Below, piece after piece: positions 4,717 through 55,982 of a DNA stretch of 64,000 bases. Source of the stretch: Bacteroidaceae bacterium (GTDB lineage: Bacteria; Bacteroidota; Bacteroidia; Bacteroidales; Bacteroidaceae); the NCBI GenBank assembly GCA_017447625.1, contig JAFSNB010000044.1:124001-188000 (forward strand), in the 5' to 3' direction. A model generated the notes under the pieces. It had not been told where the DNA came from. It did no database searches and saw only the letters and a program-made list of their open reading frames with translations. Numbering within the stretch: the stretch's first letter is position 1; every line of letters starts with the position of its first letter. The position numbers and the translations under genes were made by a program.

Positions 4717-6136
4717 CTCCAAGGACGAACTGCTAAGTCGAATACGTGAGGGCCGCAAGCTCAATACGAGTGAGCAACTGCGCCTGACTGTGTTGCTGAG
4801 TGTGCCGGCTATACTGGCGCAGGCGGCCAGTATCCTCATGTTCTACATCGATGATGCTATGGTCGGTTCGCTTGGTGCGCTCGCTTCAGCTTCAATAGGA
4901 CTGGTGGCAACTACGATGTGGCTCTACTGGAGCATTATCTCGTGTGTAAGTATGGGCTTCTCCGTACAGGTGGCTCATCTTATCGGAGCTAACAGGTTGG
5001 AGGATGCGCGTAATGTGTTCCGCCAGGGAATAGTCACAGCCGCCATTGTCTGTCTGACGGTTATGGCCGTTTGTGCGCTGATAGCCTTCCCGCTGCCTTA
5101 TTGGTTAGGGGGAGGGGAGGATATAGCGCCGCAGGCATCGGTATATTTCCTCATATTCATTCTCGGCACGCCGTTTGCGATGTTTCATCTGCTTGGGTCG
5201 GGTATGCTGAGATGTGCGGGAGACATGAAGACCCCGTCGTTTGCCAGCGTTTTGATGTGTATCCTGGATGTGGGCTTCAACTTCATAGCCATTTTCCCCA
5301 CGCGGGTTATATCCGTGTTCGGCCTATCGCTTACTATGCCAGGCCTGGGCTTGGGAGTGGCGGGGGCAGCTGTAGGTACGGTGCTAGCGGAGGCAGTCGT
5401 GGCGTCTTACGTGATGTGGTTCGCCGTAGTCCGCCACCGCGAATTGCGTCTGTTGGGCGAGAAGGGACGTTTCCGTCCCGAATTGCTTGTGCTCCGTAAG
5501 GCTTCCGATATAGCTATGCCAGTGCTGTTTCAGCGGGTGCTTATGAATGCGGCCCAGATAACAATCACCATAATCGTGGCTCCGTTGGGAGCTATCGCCA
5601 TAGCAGCCAACGCTTTGGGTATCACGGCCGAGAGCCTCTGCTATATGCCCGGCTACGGTATAGGCGAGGCCGCCACGACGTTGGTAGGCCAGAGTTACGG
5701 GGCCAAACGCCACGGTCTCACAGAACGTTTCGCGTGGATGACAACCCTGTTTGGCATCGGAGTGATGACGCTGATGGGAGCCGTGATGTATGTGGCTGCG
5801 CCGCTGATGATGGCAACGCTGACTCCCGACGCCGCCGTACGTGCACTCGGCACAGAATGTTTGCGCATTGAGGCTTGGGCCGAGCCGATGTTTGCCGCAT
5901 CTATAGTAGCCATGAGTGTGTTCATCGGAATCGGAGACACCCGTAAGCCCGCCCTTATGAATCTCCTGTCCATGTGGTTCGTGCGTGTCACGCTGGCAGC
6001 TCTGCTCGCTCCGCGCTATGGCTTGCAAGGCGTCTGGGTAGCGATGGCCATTGAACTGACATTCAGAGGAATAATATTTCTGATAAGGTTAAAGACCCAC
6101 CCCCAAACCCCTCCCGTCAGGGAGGGGAGGAGCTAG
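4709..6136 (+). CDS. MATE family multidrug/Na+ antiporter
   Basis: Inner-membrane MATE exporter (MatE domains) of about 475 residues, consistent with 12 transmembrane helices and the family length of 450-480. The frame stays open to an ATG at 4688, but residues 1-7 of that version (MHYALSI) are only translated repeat DNA, so ATG 4709 (MNYSKDELLSRIREG) is preferred. Hydrophobic helices begin near residue 28 (LLSVPAILAQAASILMFYID), and the two half-domains repeat the VxLSVP/MPVLFQR pattern. The C-terminal tail PQTPPVREGRS comes from a GC-rich palindromic element that also contains the stop codon. Substrate unknown. It probably lies in one transcription unit with the downstream DUF3737 gene. Confidence 0.88.
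   Translation: MNYSKDELLSRIREGRKLNTSEQLRLTVLLSVPAILAQAASILMFYIDDAMVGSLGALASASIGLVATTMWLYWSIISCVSMGFSVQVAHLIGANRLEDARNVFRQGIVTAAIVCLTVMAVCALIAFPLPYWLGGGEDIAPQASVYFLIFILGTPFAMFHLLGSGMLRCAGDMKTPSFASVLMCILDVGFNFIAIFPTRVISVFGLSLTMPGLGLGVAGAAVGTVLAEAVVASYVMWFAVVRHRELRLLGEKGRFRPELLVLRKASDIAMPVLFQRVLMNAAQITITIIVAPLGAIAIAANALGITAESLCYMPGYGIGEAATTLVGQSYGAKRHGLTERFAWMTTLFGIGVMTLMGAVMYVAAPLMMATLTPDAAVRALGTECLRIEAWAEPMFAASIVAMSVFIGIGDTRKPALMNLLSMWFVRVTLAALLAPRYGLQGVWVAMAIELTFRGIIFLIRLKTHPQTPPVREGRS
6092..6135. repeat. GC-rich palindromic element forming the MATE 3' end
   Basis: It reads AGACCCACCCCC, then CCCCTCCCGTCAGGGAGGGG. It is the reverse complement of the right half of the full-length element in the PnuC-type gene. 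It encodes the last residues of the MATE protein. Confidence 0.75.
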
Positions 6137-6183
6137 CGCGATGCCTAATAAATCCCATAGGCCCAATAGACCCATTAAGCCCA

Positions 6184-6214: not shown

Positions 6215-7083
6215 TAATAAAGGATAAGAGCTTCGGCGGCGAACGTCCGCTGTTTGGCATCAGGGACACGCGCCTTGAGAACGTGACAATAACCGAAGGA
6301 GAGAGCGGCGTGAAGTGCTGCCAGAACATCGAGGCCTACGGCTGCCGCTTCATCGGAAAGTATCCGTTGTGGCACGTGGATGGCAGTCTCATTACGAACT
6401 GCTATTTCGAGGTGGGCTCGCGCTCAGCCATCTGGTATAGTAACGACATGAAGATGCGCGACTGCACTATAGACGGGCCGAAGTTCTTCCGCGAGATGAA
6501 CGGTCTCAGCGTGGAGAACGTCTCCATAACCGATGCCGACGAGACGTTCTGGCGTGTTAAGGGATTGCGTGTCCGCAACCTGAAACTCCATGACGGCACT
6601 TATCCCTTTATGTTCTGCGAGGACATAGATGTCGATGGGCTGGATAGCGACTCGAAGTATGTGTTCCAGTATGTCCGCAACGCCGTAATCCGCAACGCTC
6701 GCATCGTAACCAAAGACGCTTTCTGGGAGACGGAGAATGTAACGATATACGACTCCGTTCTTGATGGCGAATATCTCGGCTGGCACTCCAAGAACCTGCG
6801 TCTTGTGCGTTGTCATATCACGGGTGAACAGCCTCTTTGCTACGTTCAGGGCCTTGTCCTTGAGGACTGCACCTTTGGCGAGGACTGCGACCGAATGTTC
6901 GAGGACACAGACCTCGAGGCTACTATCATTGGTCACGTCACGAACATCAAGAACCCGCGCACCGGCCATATACGCCTCGGCTCGCTCGGCTCGCTGACGA
7001 TAGATGAACACATAAAACAGCCCGCAAACTGTATAATAACGAAGACTCTCCCCCCTGCCCCTCCCTGCGAGGGAGGGGAGTAG
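6208..7083 (+). CDS. DUF3737 family right-handed beta-helix protein
   Basis: About 291 residues with many short parallel-beta rungs (patterns such as LENVTIT, VENVSIT, LRVRNLKL, AVIRNARIV), typical of DUF3737 (PF12541). The function of the family is not established. No signal peptide, so probably cytoplasmic. ATG 6208 (MNLIKDKSFGGERPLFGIRD) is preferred because the seven residues before it are encoded by the heptamer tract. The C-terminal residues (TLPPAPPCEGGE) are encoded by a GC-rich palindromic element, so the original end was probably near residue 278. It sits between the MATE exporter and the PatB-type lyase. Confidence 0.8.
   Translation: MNLIKDKSFGGERPLFGIRDTRLENVTITEGESGVKCCQNIEAYGCRFIGKYPLWHVDGSLITNCYFEVGSRSAIWYSNDMKMRDCTIDGPKFFREMNGLSVENVSITDADETFWRVKGLRVRNLKLHDGTYPFMFCEDIDVDGLDSDSKYVFQYVRNAVIRNARIVTKDAFWETENVTIYDSVLDGEYLGWHSKNLRLVRCHITGEQPLCYVQGLVLEDCTFGEDCDRMFEDTDLEATIIGHVTNIKNPRTGHIRLGSLGSLTIDEHIKQPANCIITKTLPPAPPCEGGE
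7044..7083. repeat. GC-rich palindromic element forming the DUF3737 3' end
   Basis: It reads GACTCTCCCCCCTGCCCCTCCC-TGCGA-GGGAGGGGAG and ends with the TAG stop of the DUF3737 gene. Confidence 0.65.
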
Positions 7084-7101
7084 TTAGAGGACAAGGGAAG
7101 A

Positions 7102-47459: not shown

Positions 47460-50400
47460 ATGAAGCACTTTTTACACTTGAAGAGGCTCTCTGCGCTCTT
47501 GCTCGGCCTCACCGTGACCATCGCCTCCAACGCTGCTCCAATCACACGTCAGCAGGCTAAGGAGAGGGCTGCACAGTTCCTGCAGAATGTACCCGGAAGC
47601 CGCCAGCTGGCTCCCGTGACGCGTCGTGCCAAACTATCCCCGAGGCTCAAGACGGCCACGTCCGTCGAGAAGGAACTCTACTATGTGTTCAACCGCGGCG
47701 TTAACCAGGGTTATGTTATTGTCTCCGGCGACGACGAGACTCTGCCTGTGTTGGGATATACCGATGAGGGCGAGTTCGACTACGAGGCTCTGCCAGACAA
47801 TATGCGTGTGTGGCTCTCGCAATATGAGAATGAACTGTCGGAGATGCGCGAGCACCCGGAGAAATTCCCCGAGAGACCCCGCTACGCTCCTGTGCACCCT
47901 GCCATCTCCCCGATGATTACGTCGAAGTGGAGTCAGGGTAGTCCTTATAACGACCTGTGCCCCAACTATTTCAACAAGGGCCGCTCCGTCACCGGCTGCG
48001 TGGCTACGGCAATGGCACAGGTGCTTTATTACTGGCGCAAGATTTCTGTCACCGAGACTCAGGCCGCTATCCCCGCCTACGACACCTACACCGAAGACCC
48101 GACCTACGGACATCTGCATGTAGATGGCATCGCTGCCGGTGCCCCGATAGACTGGGACAATATGATAGACGAATACGGCAGCTCTGCCACTGGCAAGCAG
48201 CGTACAGCTGTGGCGCAGCTGATGCTTTACTGCGGAGTCAGCGTCCAGATGGACTACACGAACAGCAGCTCCGGAGCCAACTCCTGGCGTGTGGCAGATG
48301 CCATGCGCAACTACTTTGGCTATGACAACAACACCCGCTATGTTGACGGCAGTCAATATTCAGCTGACGCTTGGGATGCATTGCTCTATAACGAGTTGGC
48401 TGAGGGCCGTCCCTTCTACCTCGCCGGCGCAAATGCCGAGGGAGGCCACGCTTTCGTTTGTCACGGTTACGACGGCAACCACTGTTTTCGCATCAACTGG
48501 GGCTGGGGCGGAAGCAGCGACGGTTGGTTCCTGTTGACCACCCTCAACCCGAGCTCTCAGGGCATCGGCGGCTCAAATGGCGGTTATAGCGAATACCCAG
48601 AGGCCATTCTCGGTTCGCAGCCGCCCGCCAGCGCAAACAAGGCAATGGCGTTTGAGAACAAGAACGCCCAGAAACTGTGCACGGCTGCGTTTGACGCCGA
48701 CGGCGACGGCACCCTGACATACGCGGAGGCAGCCGCCGTGAAGGACCTTGGCACCACATTCAAAGGGCAGCGCATCTCTGCCCTGCCTGAGCTCTATTAC
48801 TTCACTGGTCTTACAGCCATCGCCGACAGCGCCTTTGCCGGTTGCTCGAATTTGGCATCCGTGAACCTGCCCAAGAAACTGCGTTCTATCGGAACTGCCG
48901 CCTTCGAGGGCTGCCGCTCACTGAAGGAAATAAACCTGCCGTCCACCGTTACCAGCATCGGCTCGAACGCTTTCGCCGACTGCGCCAAGCTCACAGACGT
49001 GAATCTGCCTGAGAGGTTGCAGACCATCGGCGACGGAGCCTTCTTCGGCTGTGCCGCCCTGACATCGATGACTTTCCCGATTACCCTGACAAACATCGGC
49101 TCCCAGGCATTTGCAGGATGTTCGAAACTCAAGACCTTCACCACTAATGGCCTCGTGCCAGAGATTCTGACCATCGATGCAACCGCTTTCGAAGGCCTCG
49201 ACCTCTCGGACGCTACGCTCAACTGTCAGCAGGGCACCACTGCCTATTATTCCTCCACAGCCCCGTGGAATGCCATAGGGACAATCAAGGGCGAGCGCAA
49301 TTTTTCCGGTGCACGCTTCACCGAAATGGCAGAGAACACGCCGGTTTATATCTATAATGTCGGCACGGGCCGCTTCCTCTCCAAGGGCGAGGCCTACGGC
49401 ACTCAGGCTGTGGGCACGGATGCAGGTATGCCGATGATGTTCAAACTGCAGCGCCCGTCGTCAGGCTCAAGCAACTATTATCTCTATTCCGACGACACTG
49501 GCAACAACAACCACCTGACTTTCCGCACAAAGACCGACGGCAAGGTAGGCAACGGCACTTGGGCCTGCTTCGTTGACGGCACTACATCCAACGGAACAAG
49601 TGCCCAGTGGACTGTCACCGCTACCGAGGACGGAAGCTATATTATTCAGACGCCGAAGGGTGCCACCGGATATAGCGCAAACAAGGCTCTCGGCATCAAT
49701 CCAGACCACGCCAGCAACGAGACCTCTCCGACTTATGGCGCTTATCCGGACGTGAACAAAGAGCAGATGCCGCTCAACTGCCGCTGGCGTTTTGTGGCTC
49801 AGGACGCGCATGCCGACTCCGTATATGTGGCAGCCAAGGCTCTTGCCGACCTGCTCGAACTGGCCAGCATGAAACATGTGAGCGCCATCCGCGAGCGAGC
49901 TGTCTATGACAACATGGATAGCGACGTGGCCGATCTGGAGCGAGCTCAGCGTACCCTGCGCAAGCGTCTCGGATTCATTGTCTTTGCAGACGAGGCCGCA
50001 CGTCAGGCTTGTGTCGGTGAGTGGGATGTGAACCAAGATGGCGAGCTGACTCTGGCCGAGGCCGAGGCCGCCGAATATTTCTACAACGAATGTGGATTCC
50101 AGAACAACAAGAATGTGACGGAGTTTGACGAGATGCTGCTCTTCAAGAACGCCACAGCAATCTTCTACAACTCCTTCCTCGGCTGCTCCAATCTGAAGCG
50201 CGTGCTTATGCCAAACAGAATAGCATCCGTGGCTTCACAGGCGTTCAAGGACTGCACATCGCTCGCAAACGTGGAGTTCGGCACTGGCCTGCTCTCTATT
50301 GCGGAGAACGCTTTTGCCGGATGCACCGCCCTGAAGGAGGTTCGTCTGCCGGTGGCTGACCCCGCAACCGTCAGCGTGACTGCCAACTCGTTCAGCGGTG

Positions 50401-52247
50401 TTGATCTTAGCAAGGCTGTGCTCTATGTACCGCAGGGCAGTTCCGCCCTCTATTCCGAGGCCGACGTGTGGAAAGAGTTCGGCGAGATTCGCGAGATGCG
50501 CGTGATTCCGGATGCAGGCTTTGCACCCTTAGAAGAGAACGAGACCGTGTATGTCTATAACCTCGGCACCCGCAGTTATCTGAACAAAGGCGAGGCCTAC
50601 GGCACTCAGGCCGTGGTGGCCAACAGCGGAGTCCGTTATCAGGTGAAGCGCACCAAGTCGATGAAGGATGGACAGTATTATCTCCAGACTCTTGCCGCAG
50701 AAAAGAACACCCTGTTCCGCACTAATACCGACAGTAAGGTGGGCGAGGGCGTGAAGGCCTGCTTCGTTGACGGCTCCGTATCCGCCAAGGCCTACTGGCA
50801 GGTTACAGAGATTGACCCCGAACGCCACATCTACACCCTGCAGGTTCCGACCGGCGACAGCGAGCATGTCGATACGCTGTTCCTCGGCACACAGTATAAC
50901 CACGAGACGGACTATGCGTATATCACCGACGGCGTTTATTACGATGTTGATTATAACCTCAACCCTGCCAACTGCCAGTGGGCTTTCATCCGTCTGAGTG
51001 ATGTTGAGGAGGTTGAGCGCCAGCGCGACAACATGGCTAACCTGCGTTCGCTGCTCGCTATAGCCAATGGTCAGGCTCTTGAGGTGAGCACAGAGCAGGC
51101 TGTGTATGACAACCCGGCATCTACAGACGATGATGTGCAGGCTGCCATAGACGCCCTCCGCGTGAAACTTCATTATATCGAGTTTGCCGACGAGCGCGCC
51201 AAGACAATCTGCGTGAACAACTGGGATGCGAACGACGACGAGGAACTGAGTGTTGAAGAGGCCGCAGCCGTAACAGACTTAGGTTCAGCCTTCCGCTCAG
51301 CCACAGGCGTTGTCTCTCTTGAGGATCTGCGCTACTTCACCTCTCTCACTTCGATTCCTGACGAGGCGTTCAGCAGCGCCAGCACTCTACAGACTATCTA
51401 TCTGCCCGCAGGCGTGAAGACATTAGGCAAGAACGTGTTCCCGACGACGTCGGTGCTGAAATATATCGTAGTGCTGAACAACGAGGCCAAGCTGGAGAGC
51501 GAGACCGTGGGCACAGAGCACCACACGTGGTTCGTGCCGCAGCAGTTCGTTGAGGCCTACGGCGCAGACGAGGCGTGGGCTCAGAGCCGAGTCACGGCCT
51601 TCACTGGCCAGCCCATTGTGACTCCGGACAGCGTCAGCCGCGCTTACGGCCGTCCGAACCCGACATTCACTTTCCATGTTGATGGCGCCCCGATAAGCGG
51701 CCAGCCGGAGATGTCCTCCGAAGCCGTCAACGCATCGCCCGTGGGCTTCTACCCAATTGCCATTGAGATCGGCACGATAACCACCGAGGGCGTGGAACTG
51801 CGTCCCGGCGTGCTCGCTGTTGAGCCTTCGCTGCTCACCGTGACTGCCAAGAGCTACACCCGTGAGGTGGGCCAAGAGAACCCCGAGTTCGAACTGACCA
51901 TTCGCACCTTCCGCAACCGCGAGAACGCCAGCGTCTTCACGGCCCAGCCTATCATAGAGTGCGACGCCACGAAGGACAGTCCCGCCGGAGAATACGAGAT
52001 TCGTGTCTATGGAGCTGAGGCCGAGAACTACATCTTTGAGTATGTCTTCGGCACGCTCACCGTCACGAACCCCGACGGCATCGCCGGCATACAGGCCGAC
52101 AGCAAGGGCGGCGACGTTTATGACTTGAGCGGTCGCAAAATGGTCAATGGTCAATGTTCAATGGTCAATGGTCAATGTTCAATGTTCAATGGAAAACTCC
52201 CGAAGGGCGTCTATGTAATCGGCGGCCGCAAGGTCGTAGTTAAGTGA
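47460..52247 (+). CDS. Secreted C10 (streptopain-like) cysteine protease with BspA-type LRRs and sorting tail
   Basis: 1595 residues. Signal peptide (MKHFLHLKRLSALLLGLTVTIASNA), Spi-like propeptide, then the C10 domain with catalytic Cys180 (SVTGCVATAMAQVLYYW) and His330 (GGHAFVCHGYDG), followed by INWGWGGSSDGWF. Three modules follow, each with an EF-hand-like loop (near 411, 855, 1255: FDADGDGTLT, WDVNQDGELT, WDANDDEELS) leading into LRR_5 repeats. Two modules also carry a VYIYNVGTGRFLSKGEAYGTQ-type domain. MBG-like domains lie at about 1390-1540. The C-terminus is a T9SS-like sorting tail (VYDLSGRKM ... LPKGVYVIGGRKVVVK). The tail is interrupted by translated heptamer repeats. Probably cell-surface proteolysis or adhesion. 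Confidence 0.9.
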   Translation: MKHFLHLKRLSALLLGLTVTIASNAAPITRQQAKERAAQFLQNVPGSRQLAPVTRRAKLSPRLKTATSVEKELYYVFNRGVNQGYVIVSGDDETLPVLGYTDEGEFDYEALPDNMRVWLSQYENELSEMREHPEKFPERPRYAPVHPAISPMITSKWSQGSPYNDLCPNYFNKGRSVTGCVATAMAQVLYYWRKISVTETQAAIPAYDTYTEDPTYGHLHVDGIAAGAPIDWDNMIDEYGSSATGKQRTAVAQLMLYCGVSVQMDYTNSSSGANSWRVADAMRNYFGYDNNTRYVDGSQYSADAWDALLYNELAEGRPFYLAGANAEGGHAFVCHGYDGNHCFRINWGWGGSSDGWFLLTTLNPSSQGIGGSNGGYSEYPEAILGSQPPASANKAMAFENKNAQKLCTAAFDADGDGTLTYAEAAAVKDLGTTFKGQRISALPELYYFTGLTAIADSAFAGCSNLASVNLPKKLRSIGTAAFEGCRSLKEINLPSTVTSIGSNAFADCAKLTDVNLPERLQTIGDGAFFGCAALTSMTFPITLTNIGSQAFAGCSKLKTFTTNGLVPEILTIDATAFEGLDLSDATLNCQQGTTAYYSSTAPWNAIGTIKGERNFSGARFTEMAENTPVYIYNVGTGRFLSKGEAYGTQAVGTDAGMPMMFKLQRPSSGSSNYYLYSDDTGNNNHLTFRTKTDGKVGNGTWACFVDGTTSNGTSAQWTVTATEDGSYIIQTPKGATGYSANKALGINPDHASNETSPTYGAYPDVNKEQMPLNCRWRFVAQDAHADSVYVAAKALADLLELASMKHVSAIRERAVYDNMDSDVADLERAQRTLRKRLGFIVFADEAARQACVGEWDVNQDGELTLAEAEAAEYFYNECGFQNNKNVTEFDEMLLFKNATAIFYNSFLGCSNLKRVLMPNRIASVASQAFKDCTSLANVEFGTGLLSIAENAFAGCTALKEVRLPVADPATVSVTANSFSGVDLSKAVLYVPQGSSALYSEADVWKEFGEIREMRVIPDAGFAPLEENETVYVYNLGTRSYLNKGEAYGTQAVVANSGVRYQVKRTKSMKDGQYYLQTLAAEKNTLFRTNTDSKVGEGVKACFVDGSVSAKAYWQVTEIDPERHIYTLQVPTGDSEHVDTLFLGTQYNHETDYAYITDGVYYDVDYNLNPANCQWAFIRLSDVEEVERQRDNMANLRSLLAIANGQALEVSTEQAVYDNPASTDDDVQAAIDALRVKLHYIEFADERAKTICVNNWDANDDEELSVEEAAAVTDLGSAFRSATGVVSLEDLRYFTSLTSIPDEAFSSASTLQTIYLPAGVKTLGKNVFPTTSVLKYIVVLNNEAKLESETVGTEHHTWFVPQQFVEAYGADEAWAQSRVTAFTGQPIVTPDSVSRAYGRPNPTFTFHVDGAPISGQPEMSSEAVNASPVGFYPIAIEIGTITTEGVELRPGVLAVEPSLLTVTAKSYTREVGQENPEFELTIRTFRNRENASVFTAQPIIECDATKDSPAGEYEIRVYGAEAENYIFEYVFGTLTVTNPDGIAGIQADSKGGDVYDLSGRKMVNGQCSMVNGQCSMFNGKLPKGVYVIGGRKVVVK
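52137..52193 (+). repeat. TCAATGN heptamers in frame in the protease tail
   Basis: About seven 7-bp units read as two copies of a 7-residue peptide (MVNGQCS) between SGRK and KLPKGVYV. 21 bp equals three units and seven codons, so the frame is kept every three units. Confidence 0.8.
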
Positions 52248-52606: not shown

Positions 52607-55006
52607 ATGAAAAAGATTGTTTTTGCGACAGCTTTGCTCGTCGCCCTTTCTGCGTATGCGGTTCCGGCCCCCCCTACCGCCCCCGAGTGGGCCTCAAATG
52701 ATAGCATTGTGCCCCATTATGGGGACGAATCTGGCGCGCAGCCAACTCCCCTCCCTGACGGGAGGGGTGAGAGGGTGGGTCTTCTCCAAGAGATTCAGGT
52801 CACATCCACCCGTGCCGGCAGCCGCACACCGATGGCTGTGAAAGAGCTCTCACGCGAGCAGATTCAGGCTGTGAACCACGGCCGGGACGTGCCGTTCCTG
52901 CTCTCGCTCACACCCAGCGTGACAACAACCACCGATGCAGGAGCGGGCGTAGGCTACACCTCGTTTCGCGTGCGCGGCACAGACCCCTCGCGCATTAACA
53001 TAACTGCCAACGGCGTGCCGCTTAACGACGGCGAGAGCTCGCTGGTCTATTTCTCCAATATGGGCGATTTCGCCAGCAGCGTGCAGTCCATACAGATCCA
53101 GCGCGGCGTGGGAACGAGCACCAACGGCGCGGGCGCTTTCGGTGCCACGGTGAATATGCTTACAGACCGCATCGACGCCAAGCCCTATGTGGGCCTCGAC
53201 GCGTCGGCTGGCTCCTACGCTACACACAAAGAGACCCTGCGTTTCGGCACAGGACTTATAGGCGGACGGTTCGGTTTGCAGGGCCGCCTCTCGAATATCG
53301 GCTCAAACGGCTACATAGACCGAGCCACATCCTCGCTCAACTCCTATTTCCTGCAGGCCGGCTGGTTCGGCGACAACTCCAGCGTGAAACTGATTACCTT
53401 CAACGGCACAGAGAAGACCTATATGGCGTGGAACTACACCTCGAAATACGAGCAGAGCCTCTACGGACGCACCTTCAATTCCTGCGGCCTCTACTACGGC
53501 AAGAACGATGAGATGTGCTTCTACGATAACCAGTATGACAAATACCGCCAGCAGCACTACCAACTGCACTGGAATCAGCAGATTGGCACACGCTGGACCA
53601 CGAATGTAGCCCTGCACTATACGCACGACGGTTACGACTACGACCAGATGAAACAGAACAAGAAACTGTACAAATGGGGATTGACCGAGAGTTCCGAGTT
53701 GCGCGGCAATCTCGTGCAGCGCAAGGGCGGCAAGAAGGATTTCTTCGGACTGGTGGCTTCGGCAAACTACAAGAACTTCCGCGGGCTGGAGGTGAATCTC
53801 GGCGGAGCCGTGAACCGCTTCAACTCCAAACACGACGGAACCGTGCTCTGGGTAGCCAGACCTTTGTACAATGAGGTTGATGACGTGTTGGACATGTATG
53901 CGAACCTCGCTCCCGACCAGCCTTATTACCACACCGCGTCGCACAAGACAGATGCCAACCTTTATGCAAAGGCCACGTGGGAAATCGTGCGCGGACTCTC
54001 GCTCTTCGGTGACATCCAGTTCCGACACATCAAATACGTGCTTGCAGGCACGCTTGATGAATGGGCCGATGGCCATCAGCAGGCTATTGACATAAACAAG
54101 AACTTCAATTTCCTGAATCCGAAGGTGGGCGTGAACTACGAGTTCCTGCGCCACCACCGCCTCTACGCCTCTTACGCCATAGCCCACCGCGAACCCACGC
54201 GTGACCACTATCAGGAACACTACGGCGAGGACGTGCGCCCGGAGCGTCTCGGCGACCTCGAAGTGGGCTATAAGTTCCAGAGCCGCCGCTTCACGGCCGG
54301 AGTGAACTTCTATCACATGCATTACAAGGACCAGTTCGTGCTCACCGGCGAACTTGACGACGAGGGCGTTGCCGTAACGAAAAACATCCCGAAGAGCTAC
54401 CGCATGGGCGTTGAACTTGAAGCCGCCTGGCAGCCAGCCGACTGGTTCCGCTGGGATGCGAACGCCACGCTGAGCCGCAACCGCGCCAAGGATATGGTTG
54501 TGACGCTCGACGATTATGTGACGAAGGTGAATATCGGCGAGACACCGCTCTCGTTTTCGCCCAACTTTATGTTCAATAACATCCTGACATTCAGCTACAA
54601 GGGCGCACGAGCAAGCATCCATAGCAAATACGTGGGACAGCAGTATCTGACTAATTACGGTGTGAAGACAATGACAGCTTGGAGCGACTGGACACCGACC
54701 GATGACACGAAGACCACCGAGACTCTCATGCTCGCTGCCCACTTCACCACCGACGTGGACCTCAGTTACACCCTGCCGCTAAAGAAGTCAATGGTCAAAG
54801 TCCCTTCCATCACCCTTGGCATAACTCTGTATAACATCTTCAATGCGAAATACGACAATAACGGATGGGCCGCGCCCCAGTTCCGTCAGAACGCCGACGG
54901 CTCCGTATATGCCGTGAACACTTGGGGACTGCGCGACTACGATGCCGCAGGCTTCGCTCCCTCCGCCCCCTTCAACTTCCTCGGATATATTTCAATAAAT
55001 TTTTAA
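52607..55006 (+). CDS. TonB-dependent outer-membrane receptor, probably for thiamine
   Basis: 799 residues. Signal peptide MKKIVFATALLVALSAYA; after a linker a TonB-box-like EIQVTSTR leads into the plug (DVPFLLSLTPSVTTT, RVRGTDPSRINITANGVPLND, IQIQRGVGTSTNGAGAFG), then a 22-strand barrel ending LGYISINF. Linker residues 44-60 (about AQPTPLPDGRGERVGLL) are encoded by a GC-rich palindromic element (52736-52787). The TPP riboswitch and the downstream PnuC-type gene argue for thiamine uptake. A TonB-dependent receptor under TPP control is known in Bacteroides; the ligand here is inferred. Confidence 0.9.
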   Translation: MKKIVFATALLVALSAYAVPAPPTAPEWASNDSIVPHYGDESGAQPTPLPDGRGERVGLLQEIQVTSTRAGSRTPMAVKELSREQIQAVNHGRDVPFLLSLTPSVTTTTDAGAGVGYTSFRVRGTDPSRINITANGVPLNDGESSLVYFSNMGDFASSVQSIQIQRGVGTSTNGAGAFGATVNMLTDRIDAKPYVGLDASAGSYATHKETLRFGTGLIGGRFGLQGRLSNIGSNGYIDRATSSLNSYFLQAGWFGDNSSVKLITFNGTEKTYMAWNYTSKYEQSLYGRTFNSCGLYYGKNDEMCFYDNQYDKYRQQHYQLHWNQQIGTRWTTNVALHYTHDGYDYDQMKQNKKLYKWGLTESSELRGNLVQRKGGKKDFFGLVASANYKNFRGLEVNLGGAVNRFNSKHDGTVLWVARPLYNEVDDVLDMYANLAPDQPYYHTASHKTDANLYAKATWEIVRGLSLFGDIQFRHIKYVLAGTLDEWADGHQQAIDINKNFNFLNPKVGVNYEFLRHHRLYASYAIAHREPTRDHYQEHYGEDVRPERLGDLEVGYKFQSRRFTAGVNFYHMHYKDQFVLTGELDDEGVAVTKNIPKSYRMGVELEAAWQPADWFRWDANATLSRNRAKDMVVTLDDYVTKVNIGETPLSFSPNFMFNNILTFSYKGARASIHSKYVGQQYLTNYGVKTMTAWSDWTPTDDTKTTETLMLAAHFTTDVDLSYTLPLKKSMVKVPSITLGITLYNIFNAKYDNNGWAAPQFRQNADGSVYAVNTWGLRDYDAAGFAPSAPFNFLGYISINF
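52736..52787. repeat. GC-rich palindromic element in frame in the TonB receptor
   Basis: GCGCAGCCAACTCCCCTCCC-TGACGGGAGGGG-TGAGAGGGTGGGTCTTCTCC. About 45 of 52 bases match the right half of the element in the PnuC-type gene 2.6 kb downstream. Confidence 0.8.
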
Positions 55007-55107
55007 ATTAATTCATAATTCAAAATTCATAATGCATAATTGGCTGGCGCACGGATGCATCGCGCAGCAATAATTATGAATTATGCATTATGCATTATGC
55101 ATTGAGC
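55005..55107. repeat. Heptamer island between the TonB receptor and the PnuC-type gene
   Basis: CATAATG-type heptamers, a GC joint (TGGCGCACGGATGCATCGCGCAGC), then ATTATGC heptamers ending just before ATG 55111. Two inward-facing tracts make the island partly palindromic. Confidence 0.7.
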
Positions 55108-55110
55108 TAA

Positions 55111-55749
55111 ATGAATTATCTTGACCTCATAACAGCCATCCTTGGCCTGATGTACATCTTTCTGGAGGTGCGTGTAAGCATCTGGATGTGGGTCGTAGGT
55201 TTCGTCATGCAACTGCTTGGCATCGTCCTTTATTACCAGAAGGGGCTGTATGCCGACTGCGGCATGGAGTTCTATTACCTCGCCATGACTGTCTATGGCT
55301 TCTGGGCTTGGACGAGAGTGAGACCCACCCCCAACCCCTCCTGTAATGGAGTGGAGCCGGATTCCTCTGCGCAGCCCACCCCCCTCCCTGACGGGAGGGG
55401 TTCGGGGGTGGGTCTTCTCCCCACCCGCCTTTACCTGCCTGCCCTCTTGGTTCTCTGCCTGCTCTGGGCGCTGATTTGGTGGTTGCTTGTGACGTTCACT
55501 AACAGCACCGTTCCGGTGGCTGACAGCTTCACCACCGCGATGAGTATTGTCGGCATCTGGGCGCTGGCACGAAAGTATGTGGAGCAGTGGCTGTTATGGA
55601 TCGCCGTTGATGCCGTCTCCTGCTATCTCTATTTTCTCAAGGAAATCCCTTTCAAGGGCAGCCTCTACGCCCTCTACGTCATCATCGCCATCGTGGGCTT
55701 CTTCCGCTGGCGCCGCCAGGCCCTTGGGAATTTGACAGTTGAAAATTGA
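55111..55749 (+). CDS. pnuT: PnuC-family transporter, probable thiamine transporter PnuT
   Basis: 212 residues, about six to seven membrane helices, no signal peptide. YLDLITAILGLMYIFLEVRVSIWMWVVGF and the C-terminal FLKEIPFKGSLYALYVIIAIVGFFRWRRQ fit the PnuC family (PF04973), which facilitates uptake of vitamin nucleosides that are trapped by phosphorylation. Placement behind a TPP riboswitch indicates thiamine. Residues 71-104 are a hydrophilic insert encoded by a GC-rich element with 22-bp terminal inverted repeats; it falls between membrane helices and so may be tolerated. The usual thiamine pyrophosphokinase gene is not next to it. Confidence 0.85.
   Translation: MNYLDLITAILGLMYIFLEVRVSIWMWVVGFVMQLLGIVLYYQKGLYADCGMEFYYLAMTVYGFWAWTRVRPTPNPSCNGVEPDSSAQPTPLPDGRGSGVGLLPTRLYLPALLVLCLLWALIWWLLVTFTNSTVPVADSFTTAMSIVGIWALARKYVEQWLLWIAVDAVSCYLYFLKEIPFKGSLYALYVIIAIVGFFRWRRQALGNLTVEN
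55321..55415. repeat. Full-length GC-rich element with terminal inverted repeats, in frame
   Basis: Left end AGACCCACCCCCAACCCCTCC and right end GGAGGGGTTCGGGGGTGGGTCT are inverted copies of each other (about 21 of 22 match, one indel). The 95-bp element keeps the reading frame and lies within a loop of the transporter. Confidence 0.8.
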
Positions 55750-55829
55750 CAGTTGAAAATTGACAGTTGGCATTTGGCTTAACTACTTAACTACTTAACT
55801 ACTTAACTACTTAACTTCTTAACTTCTTC
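55735..55829. repeat. TTGACAG heptamers and AACTACTT octamers
   Basis: TTGACAG/TTGAAAA heptamers begin inside the last codons of the PnuC-type gene (five to six units), followed by AACTACTT 8-bp units (about six). Confidence 0.7.
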
Positions 55830-55982
55830 AGAAATCTATATTTAAAATGTTTTGGAAATAATCTACCGAATGTACCGAAATCAATCCTAATGCATTGAAT
55901 ACCAAATGTATTTATTTCGGTAGATTACTATATAAATCTACCGCAAATTCGGTGCATTTTGCTAAAAATGTACCGCAAGGTG

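Follow-up and report, generated by a model that had tools for sequence, protein, structure and literature searches.

The PnuC-type transporter gene at positions 55111–55749 of the 64-kb window (the whole stretch of 64,000 nucleotides analysed here) contains a GC-rich palindromic segment at positions 55321–55415. This raises the question of whether a mobile element has been inserted within a protein gene without loss of the reading frame and, if so, what kind of element it is. The original prediction, made from the sequence alone, had described a 95-bp mobile element similar to a miniature inverted-repeat transposable element (MITE). The analysis presented below indicates that the segment is likely to be a non-autonomous mobile palindrome of the REP (repetitive extragenic palindromic) or REPIN (REP doublet forming hairpin) kind, inserted in frame in PnuC.

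The inverted ends were confirmed. The segment begins and ends with AGACCCACCCCC...GGGGGTGGGTCT; complementarity is 89% for its outer 18-nt arms and 81% for an inner pair of 27 nt. The single-stranded DNA fold of the segment was better than those of 200 out of 200 shuffled sequences on both strands (z −4.4 and −5.0). As predicted, the open reading frame (ORF) 55111–55749 is open across the segment. The predicted addition of 33 residues holds as regards the presence of an insert, while the figure is only approximate because 95 is not divisible by 3; compared with the shortest loops, of 20 residues, the loop of 41 is longer by about 21. The claim that halves of the segment recur elsewhere also proved correct, at 52736–52785 inside the TonB-receptor ORF and at 6090–6140. 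Overall, the window contains one doublet (55319–55418), while the units at 6090, 7041 and 52736 stand alone. An Rfam search of the stretch gave no match.

55321–55415, no strand assigned: REPIN-like doublet within the PnuC-type gene, formed by two REP units in inverted orientation, AGACCC tags facing outward
55319–55360, + strand: left REP unit, stem partly degenerate (nhmmer, 34.5 bits)
55369–55418, − strand: right REP unit (nhmmer, 48.0 bits)
55111–55749, + strand: PnuC-type transporter ORF of 212 aa, insert at about residues 70–104
52736–52785, − strand: single REP unit in a TonB-dependent receptor gene (ORF 52607–55006), translated in frame as AQPTPLPDGRGERVGLL close to the N-terminus
6090–6140, + strand: single REP unit (52.5 bits), flanks scored non-coding
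7041–7088, + strand: diverged REP unit (25.2 bits), coding stretch to its left

When the host genome (2.56 Mb in 46 contigs, 73% complete) was searched, 86 matches to parts of the 95-bp segment were found. These partial matches revealed one half of the segment as the repeating unit; the predicted palindrome stands, while the 95-bp whole is not what is repeated. The unit is about 40–50 bp long, AAGACCCACCCCCnnCCCCTCCCGTnAGGGAGGGGAG, and consists of a tag of the form AAGACCC(ACCCCC) and, after it, a short GC-rich hairpin; all 22 units aligned from several genomes have both the hairpin and the tag core AGAC. The exact pattern AGACCCACCCC-N(1-6)-CCCTCC is present in 88 copies in the host genome, and the reversed pattern used as a control was found in none of 139 genomes of the genus, host included. 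A short palindrome with a conserved end tag and a high copy number (88) is what characterizes REPs.

The arrangement of the units was analyzed with a profile built from 41 strict copies in a sample of 469,712 bases, part of which was fetched for matching, so that densities are biased upward. Collapsed hits of at least 8 bits came to 92/96 in this sample. Neighbouring units less than 400 bp apart formed 26 pairs: 22 were inverted with tags outward (+−), two were −−, one ++ and one −+. The excess of tag-outward pairs is significant (binomial 3e-10 against an expectation of 25%). Their outer length is 100–196 bp, and 17 out of 22 fall between 147 and 174 bp. Such inverted pairs with outward tags, over-represented and of a preferred length, are the REPIN architecture. 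Units also occur singly and spacers between paired units vary, which makes a REPIN-like REP doublet a better label than a MITE of one defined sequence; the predicted mobile palindrome is retained. Hairpins with the conserved tag were found in non-coding DNA as well.

Some doublets (L009, L012, L020, L021, L022, L028 and L230/L262) contain, beside one REP, the internal motif ATGACCCTATAAGCCC or a near variant of it. Motifs of this type are also present in doublets of other species, and some of these doublets end about 10 bases from an ATG. A second REP-like family, GGCCCCTCTCTAACTCCCCCCGTGGGGGGAG, is present in the host genome (e.g. C1:13068, C8:44924 and L034) with 12 strict copies in the 0.47 Mb sampled. 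In genome G059 the flank of L229 contains another repeat of about 100 bp, CCCTCACC...GGTGAGGGATTGAGGGA, found in at least dozens of places, often as +/− pairs; none was seen among the G088 matches listed.

The host is probably a rumen Prevotella, since the relatives of its PnuC are assigned to Prevotella, Prevotellaceae, Bacteroidaceae or Bacteroidales and many come from ruminant-gut metagenomes. The exact pattern was found in 90 of the 139 genus genomes, with a maximum of 146 copies. In an order-wide draw only 4 of 392 other genomes had it, with 1–2 copies each; five of the 392 belong to other genera of the same family, and none of these five has the pattern. The AGACC-tagged family is nearly restricted to the genus.

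Comparison of PnuC homologues located the insert in a variable loop. The 110 loci yielded 82 distinct loops (10 were unparsed and 18 were duplicates). The loop has 20 residues in 22 of the 82 sequences and 41 in the host, where residues 70–104 were modelled as a low-confidence coil between two predicted helices (mean pLDDT 67). Perfect stems of at least 8 were present in 12/82 loops and in 12/1589 windows elsewhere in the gene, and stems of at least 7 in 14/34 loops of 29 or more residues, 3/21 of 23–28 and 1/27 of 22 or fewer; p-values for these counts are rough because windows overlap and genomes are related. Loci L042 and L041 have AGACCC- or GGGTCT-type sequence in the PnuC loop, and other species have different palindromes in the same place. 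The inserted residues are not conserved elsewhere and short loops lacking the insert are common, in agreement with the prediction. The clean empty site expected in relatives was not found in base-exact form in these data, because the nearest relative (78% identical, L036/L140) lacks the element but has a loop of its own, 28 residues long. The PnuC loop at L204:1501–2082 contains a perfect inverted repeat of 27 bp that belongs to a different palindrome family, and its peptide QGDGSF resembles a loop peptide of L159.

UvrA presents a second case. It was searched in 61 genomes, of which 52 matched; the best 30 loci were read, 27 of them resolved and three off-motif. The stretch between the CxxC motif and the helix EIxKEIxxRLxF has 66 residues in 17 of the 27, 68–73 in four, 77 in one, 81 in two, 92 in one and 103 in one; in the host it has 99. 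The host insert of 101 bp starts with AGACCC and ends with GGGTCT, and the protein is there about 32–35 residues longer than the solved UvrA 2r6f. Other GC-rich palindromic sequences occupy the same place in G127, G008 and G019.

Within the 0.47-Mb sample 57 elements scored at least 20 bits. Eleven have coding flanks in one continuous stop-free frame, and one more has a continuous frame with one stop. Both flanks are coding in differing frames in five cases and on opposite strands in one; 26 elements are coding on one side and 12 on neither, i.e. 38 out of 57 in a sample partly selected for matches, and one could not be assigned. The in-frame hosts read as glycogen synthase, glutamate synthase, an MFS transporter (147-bp doublet), PnuC, one glycoside hydrolase (two elements), UvrA (three elements, all in one uvrA gene), methionine synthase and dihydroxy-acid dehydratase; except for UvrA and IlvD, the proteins were named from their sequence by reading. 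Five further elements scored as one-sided sit by eye in open ORFs: a TonB receptor, a topoisomerase, Mfd and two others. Copies in genes are found in both orientations and are read in several of the forward and reverse frames.

These data suggest the following mechanism. Two inverted REP units, each with the AAGACCC(ACCCCC) tag and its hairpin, and a short spacer between them would constitute a non-autonomous mobile unit. In Prevotella-type genomes it would spread, most likely via a hairpin intermediate of single-stranded DNA, and would be mobilised in trans by a Y1 HUH transposase of the REP-associated type. Insertions in genes would persist only where the frame stays open and the loop is permissive; the insert could be read as a Pro/Gly-rich linker because GC-rich sequence is often stop-free, and for PnuC it would be nearly neutral. 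A more specific version of this mechanism, in which the doublets are moved by a long REP-transposase-like protein whose C-terminal domain resembles DprA, is a real possibility to which we give slightly less than even chances. Four proteins of this type were read in the host genome:

L031, contig C25: candidate REP-transposase-like protein
L032, contig C1: candidate REP-transposase-like protein
L033, contig C25: candidate REP-transposase-like protein
L034, contig C21: candidate REP-transposase-like protein

The candidate, 340–483 aa long, gave six matches in the host genome, these four among them, and matches in 89 of the 139 genus genomes. An alignment of 12 members shows an invariant MPDHxH and a later invariant Tyr (12/12). 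The predicted structure of L031 matched Y1 folds and, in its C-terminal domain, DprA/ShosA. As modelled, the candidate is a Y1 HUH fold with HxH and a putative catalytic Tyr; the DprA-like part is predicted from the fold of L031, one protein. Pfam detected Y1_Tnp in 11 of the 12 alignment members and a DprA model in none of the 12. The curated model NF047646 for the REP-associated tyrosine transposase (RAYT) was the best hit of the candidate, but its 16–33 bits do not pass the cut-off of 80. Single-sequence hhalign of the candidate alignment against E. coli RayT gave only a weak match with a probability of 6.7, although the HUH motif was aligned, and PADLOC on the four RAYT-like proteins returned nothing.

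REPs of at least 27 bits were found in the flanks (about 1.5 kb) of the candidate gene at 4 of 30 loci, and of at least 12 bits at 6 of 30. Conserved synteny of REPs with the RAYT-like gene was rejected, as contexts differ among the three loci compared. The candidate protein is also present in 21 of the 49 genomes without any copy of the pattern. The link of the candidate transposase to the doublets is weak. Canonical Y1_Tnp genes were rejected as movers: other palindromes lie on either side of all 11 that were viewed, and a strong Y1_Tnp match (26 genomes, cut about 60 bits) correlated with copy number at only 0.07. Some GGCCCCTCTCTAACTCCCCCCGTGGGGGGAG copies adjoin the RAYT-like genes L032 and L034, and CATTGACC repeats, similar to the CAATGGTCAATGTT tandem of the window, adjoin L033. 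The palindrome by a short Y1 gene at L079 (G116) has AGACCC and GGGTCT strings; it is a different palindrome, and the genome has no copies of the pattern.

Mobility of the palindrome family is well supported. Six loci, about 72–93% alike, were compared between G059 and G088, and in two of the six pairs (L245/L264 and L237/L265) a doublet present in one genome is absent from the other. Two of the remaining pairs consisted of one unrelated variable stretch and one locus without alignment across the site; G021 and G035, considered as a close pair, had no loci in common among those fetched.

Several observations weigh against the proposed mechanism. In the two presence/absence pairs the flanks differ too. 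In two other pairs (L230/L262 and L240/L261) the doublet is common to both genomes at the same place, which makes some of the copies old and stable. The shared doublet of L240/L261 (L240, 480–720) lies just ahead of a start codon; its spacer and tag are nearly unchanged and its right hairpin has changed on both sides of the stem, from CCCTCCC/GGGAGGG to CTCCCCC/GGGGGAG, which could reflect conversion instead of transposition. Neither a base-exact empty site nor a target duplication was readable in the compared loci, the former because these are only about 72–93% alike. At a second REP site the host UvrA is just 2–3 residues longer than the solved protein, so replacement is possible there as well as insertion. 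REP units are open in 4.06 of six frames, compared with 4.23 in shuffles (54 units); the idea that REPs are adapted to stay open in all frames was thus rejected. As for the candidate, no AGACCC or GGGTCT was found within 220 bp of its gene (0/30 loci), and its correlation with copy number disappeared under independent contrasts (r 0.08, p 0.73, 24 genomes), which used 24 of the 30 UvrA loci after six in which the motif was not found were dropped.

Two other explanations are improbable to about the same degree. The first is that the segment is the MITE of a standard DDE insertion sequence, e.g. IS5-like, and moves by cut-and-paste. The outward AGACC/GGTCT ends do resemble the terminal inverted repeats (TIRs) of ISPg1 and BrickBuilt, given as GAGACC...GGTCTC in PMC4596501. 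However, the units are hairpins that occur singly too, no target duplication was recognised at the compared sites, none of which is base-exact, and the 22 tag-outward pairs are too short for a transposase gene, within a systematic search that extended to pairs below 400 bp. Several of the high-copy genomes, namely G010, G011, G017, G018, G022 and G029, have no DDE_Tnp_1 match, and DDE_Tnp_1 was rejected as the mover at a correlation with copy number of 0.09. The second is that a functional sequence, such as a terminator or RNA element, came first and was copied by recombination, the copies in genes being accidental. The 26 elements with coding sequence on one side only, several copies seen by eye directly after stop or before start codons, and the doublets shared by two species, one just before a start codon, agree with it; both orientations of the copies in genes, the inverted-pair architecture, the lack of any Rfam match in the stretch and, by eye, of a consistent T-tract after the hairpin do not. 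That these are native low-complexity Pro/Gly loops alike by composition has practically no chance of being correct: REPs are GC-rich (67% versus 52%) and no more open than shuffles, but this reading is already contradicted by the 88 copies against none for the reversed control, the tagged hairpins in non-coding DNA and the short forms in relatives.

With the REP/REPIN reading thus preferred, we suggest, tentatively and as the less probable part of the picture, that AGACC-tagged REPINs are moved by the DprA-fused transposase and, together with sister palindromes, repeatedly rewrite the same loops of transporter and repair proteins in rumen Prevotella, so that linker evolution in a free-living bacterium would have a standing source in coding palindromes. 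The short forms in relatives and the repeated hits on the same loop make tolerance, neutrality and function of such inserts testable. If it is confirmed, the transposase–DprA-like fusion would have an architecture of which we found no description for REP-associated proteins, and would suggest a link between hairpin transposition and the handling of single-stranded DNA. For annotation, PTPLPDGRG-type stretches in Prevotella proteins may be scars of mobile elements.

Other repeats are present in the window. Tandem GACAGTTGAAAATT and TTAACTAC repeats lie 3′ of the PnuC gene (55727–55830) and AATTATGCATT-type inverted repeats ahead of it (55010–55105). AT-rich tandem CAATGGTCAATGTT repeats at 52143–52200 are read as NGQCSMVNGQCSM near the C-terminus of ORF 47460–52247.

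The predicted likeness to Rickettsia palindromic elements is borne out in that both are palindrome families inserted in frame in unrelated protein genes and read as residues (as described in PMC10969869); absence from homologues was examined here for UvrA and PnuC. By that description the Rickettsia elements are about 150 bp long and encode a conserved peptide, whereas here several frames are used and the phylum is another. The same source calls the frequency of in-frame coding palindromes in Rickettsia unusual. Such palindromes are best known from that genus; here they occur in a free-living gut genus with dozens of copies.

REPINs, as outlined in PMC3116915, likewise pair two REP units in inverted orientation across a variable spacer, reach high copy number and spread within genomes, and a trans-acting transposase was proposed there. 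The tag is AGACCC here, unlike the usual GTAG, the sequence is another, and many copies are in genes. In a REPtron, REPs flank a RAYT gene; no such flanking was found within 220 bp of the gene at the 30 RAYT-like loci. The original prediction knew of no named equivalent in Bacteroidales. This holds for the AGACC-tagged family, of which no description was found in open-access literature judged partly by titles and abstracts, but CGTC REPs and REP-associated transposases are on record for Bacteroidetes in PMC3733652 and PMC6006769. In Bacteroidales, the BrickBuilt MITEs of Porphyromonas gingivalis are also non-autonomous with AGACC-type ends; according to PMC4596501 they are intergenic, with 23-nt tandem repeats, IS5-like TIRs and 19 copies.

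Among transposases, the groups TnpA_REP 2.4 and 2.6 are from Bacteroidetes as well, and in TnpA_REP 2.4, as in the candidate, the HuH part is separated from the remaining core by a variable insert. In the account of PMC6006769 its median length is 194 aa with no extension after the core, unlike the 340–483 aa and DprA-like C-terminal domain of the candidate. That account also mentions a subclass, abundant in Bacteroidetes and Cyanobacteria, whose REP-associated transposases have variable inserts and even REPs inserted within the transposase genes themselves. The GTAG/CGTC-tagged REPs of PMC3733652 are tagged hairpins of 20–40 bp that form dimers and have intragenic copies. They are reported there in uvrA and other repair genes of various bacteria, and two Xanthomonas species have them at nearly the same position in recB; Bacteroidetes is among the phyla in which CGTC repeats are reported. 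The AGACC tag is neither GTAG nor CGTC, and here several kinds of palindromes are found at the same UvrA and PnuC sites in many species of one genus. The AGACC family is set apart from known REPs by its tag, by the hosts in which it is found and by its repeated occurrence in the same protein loops.
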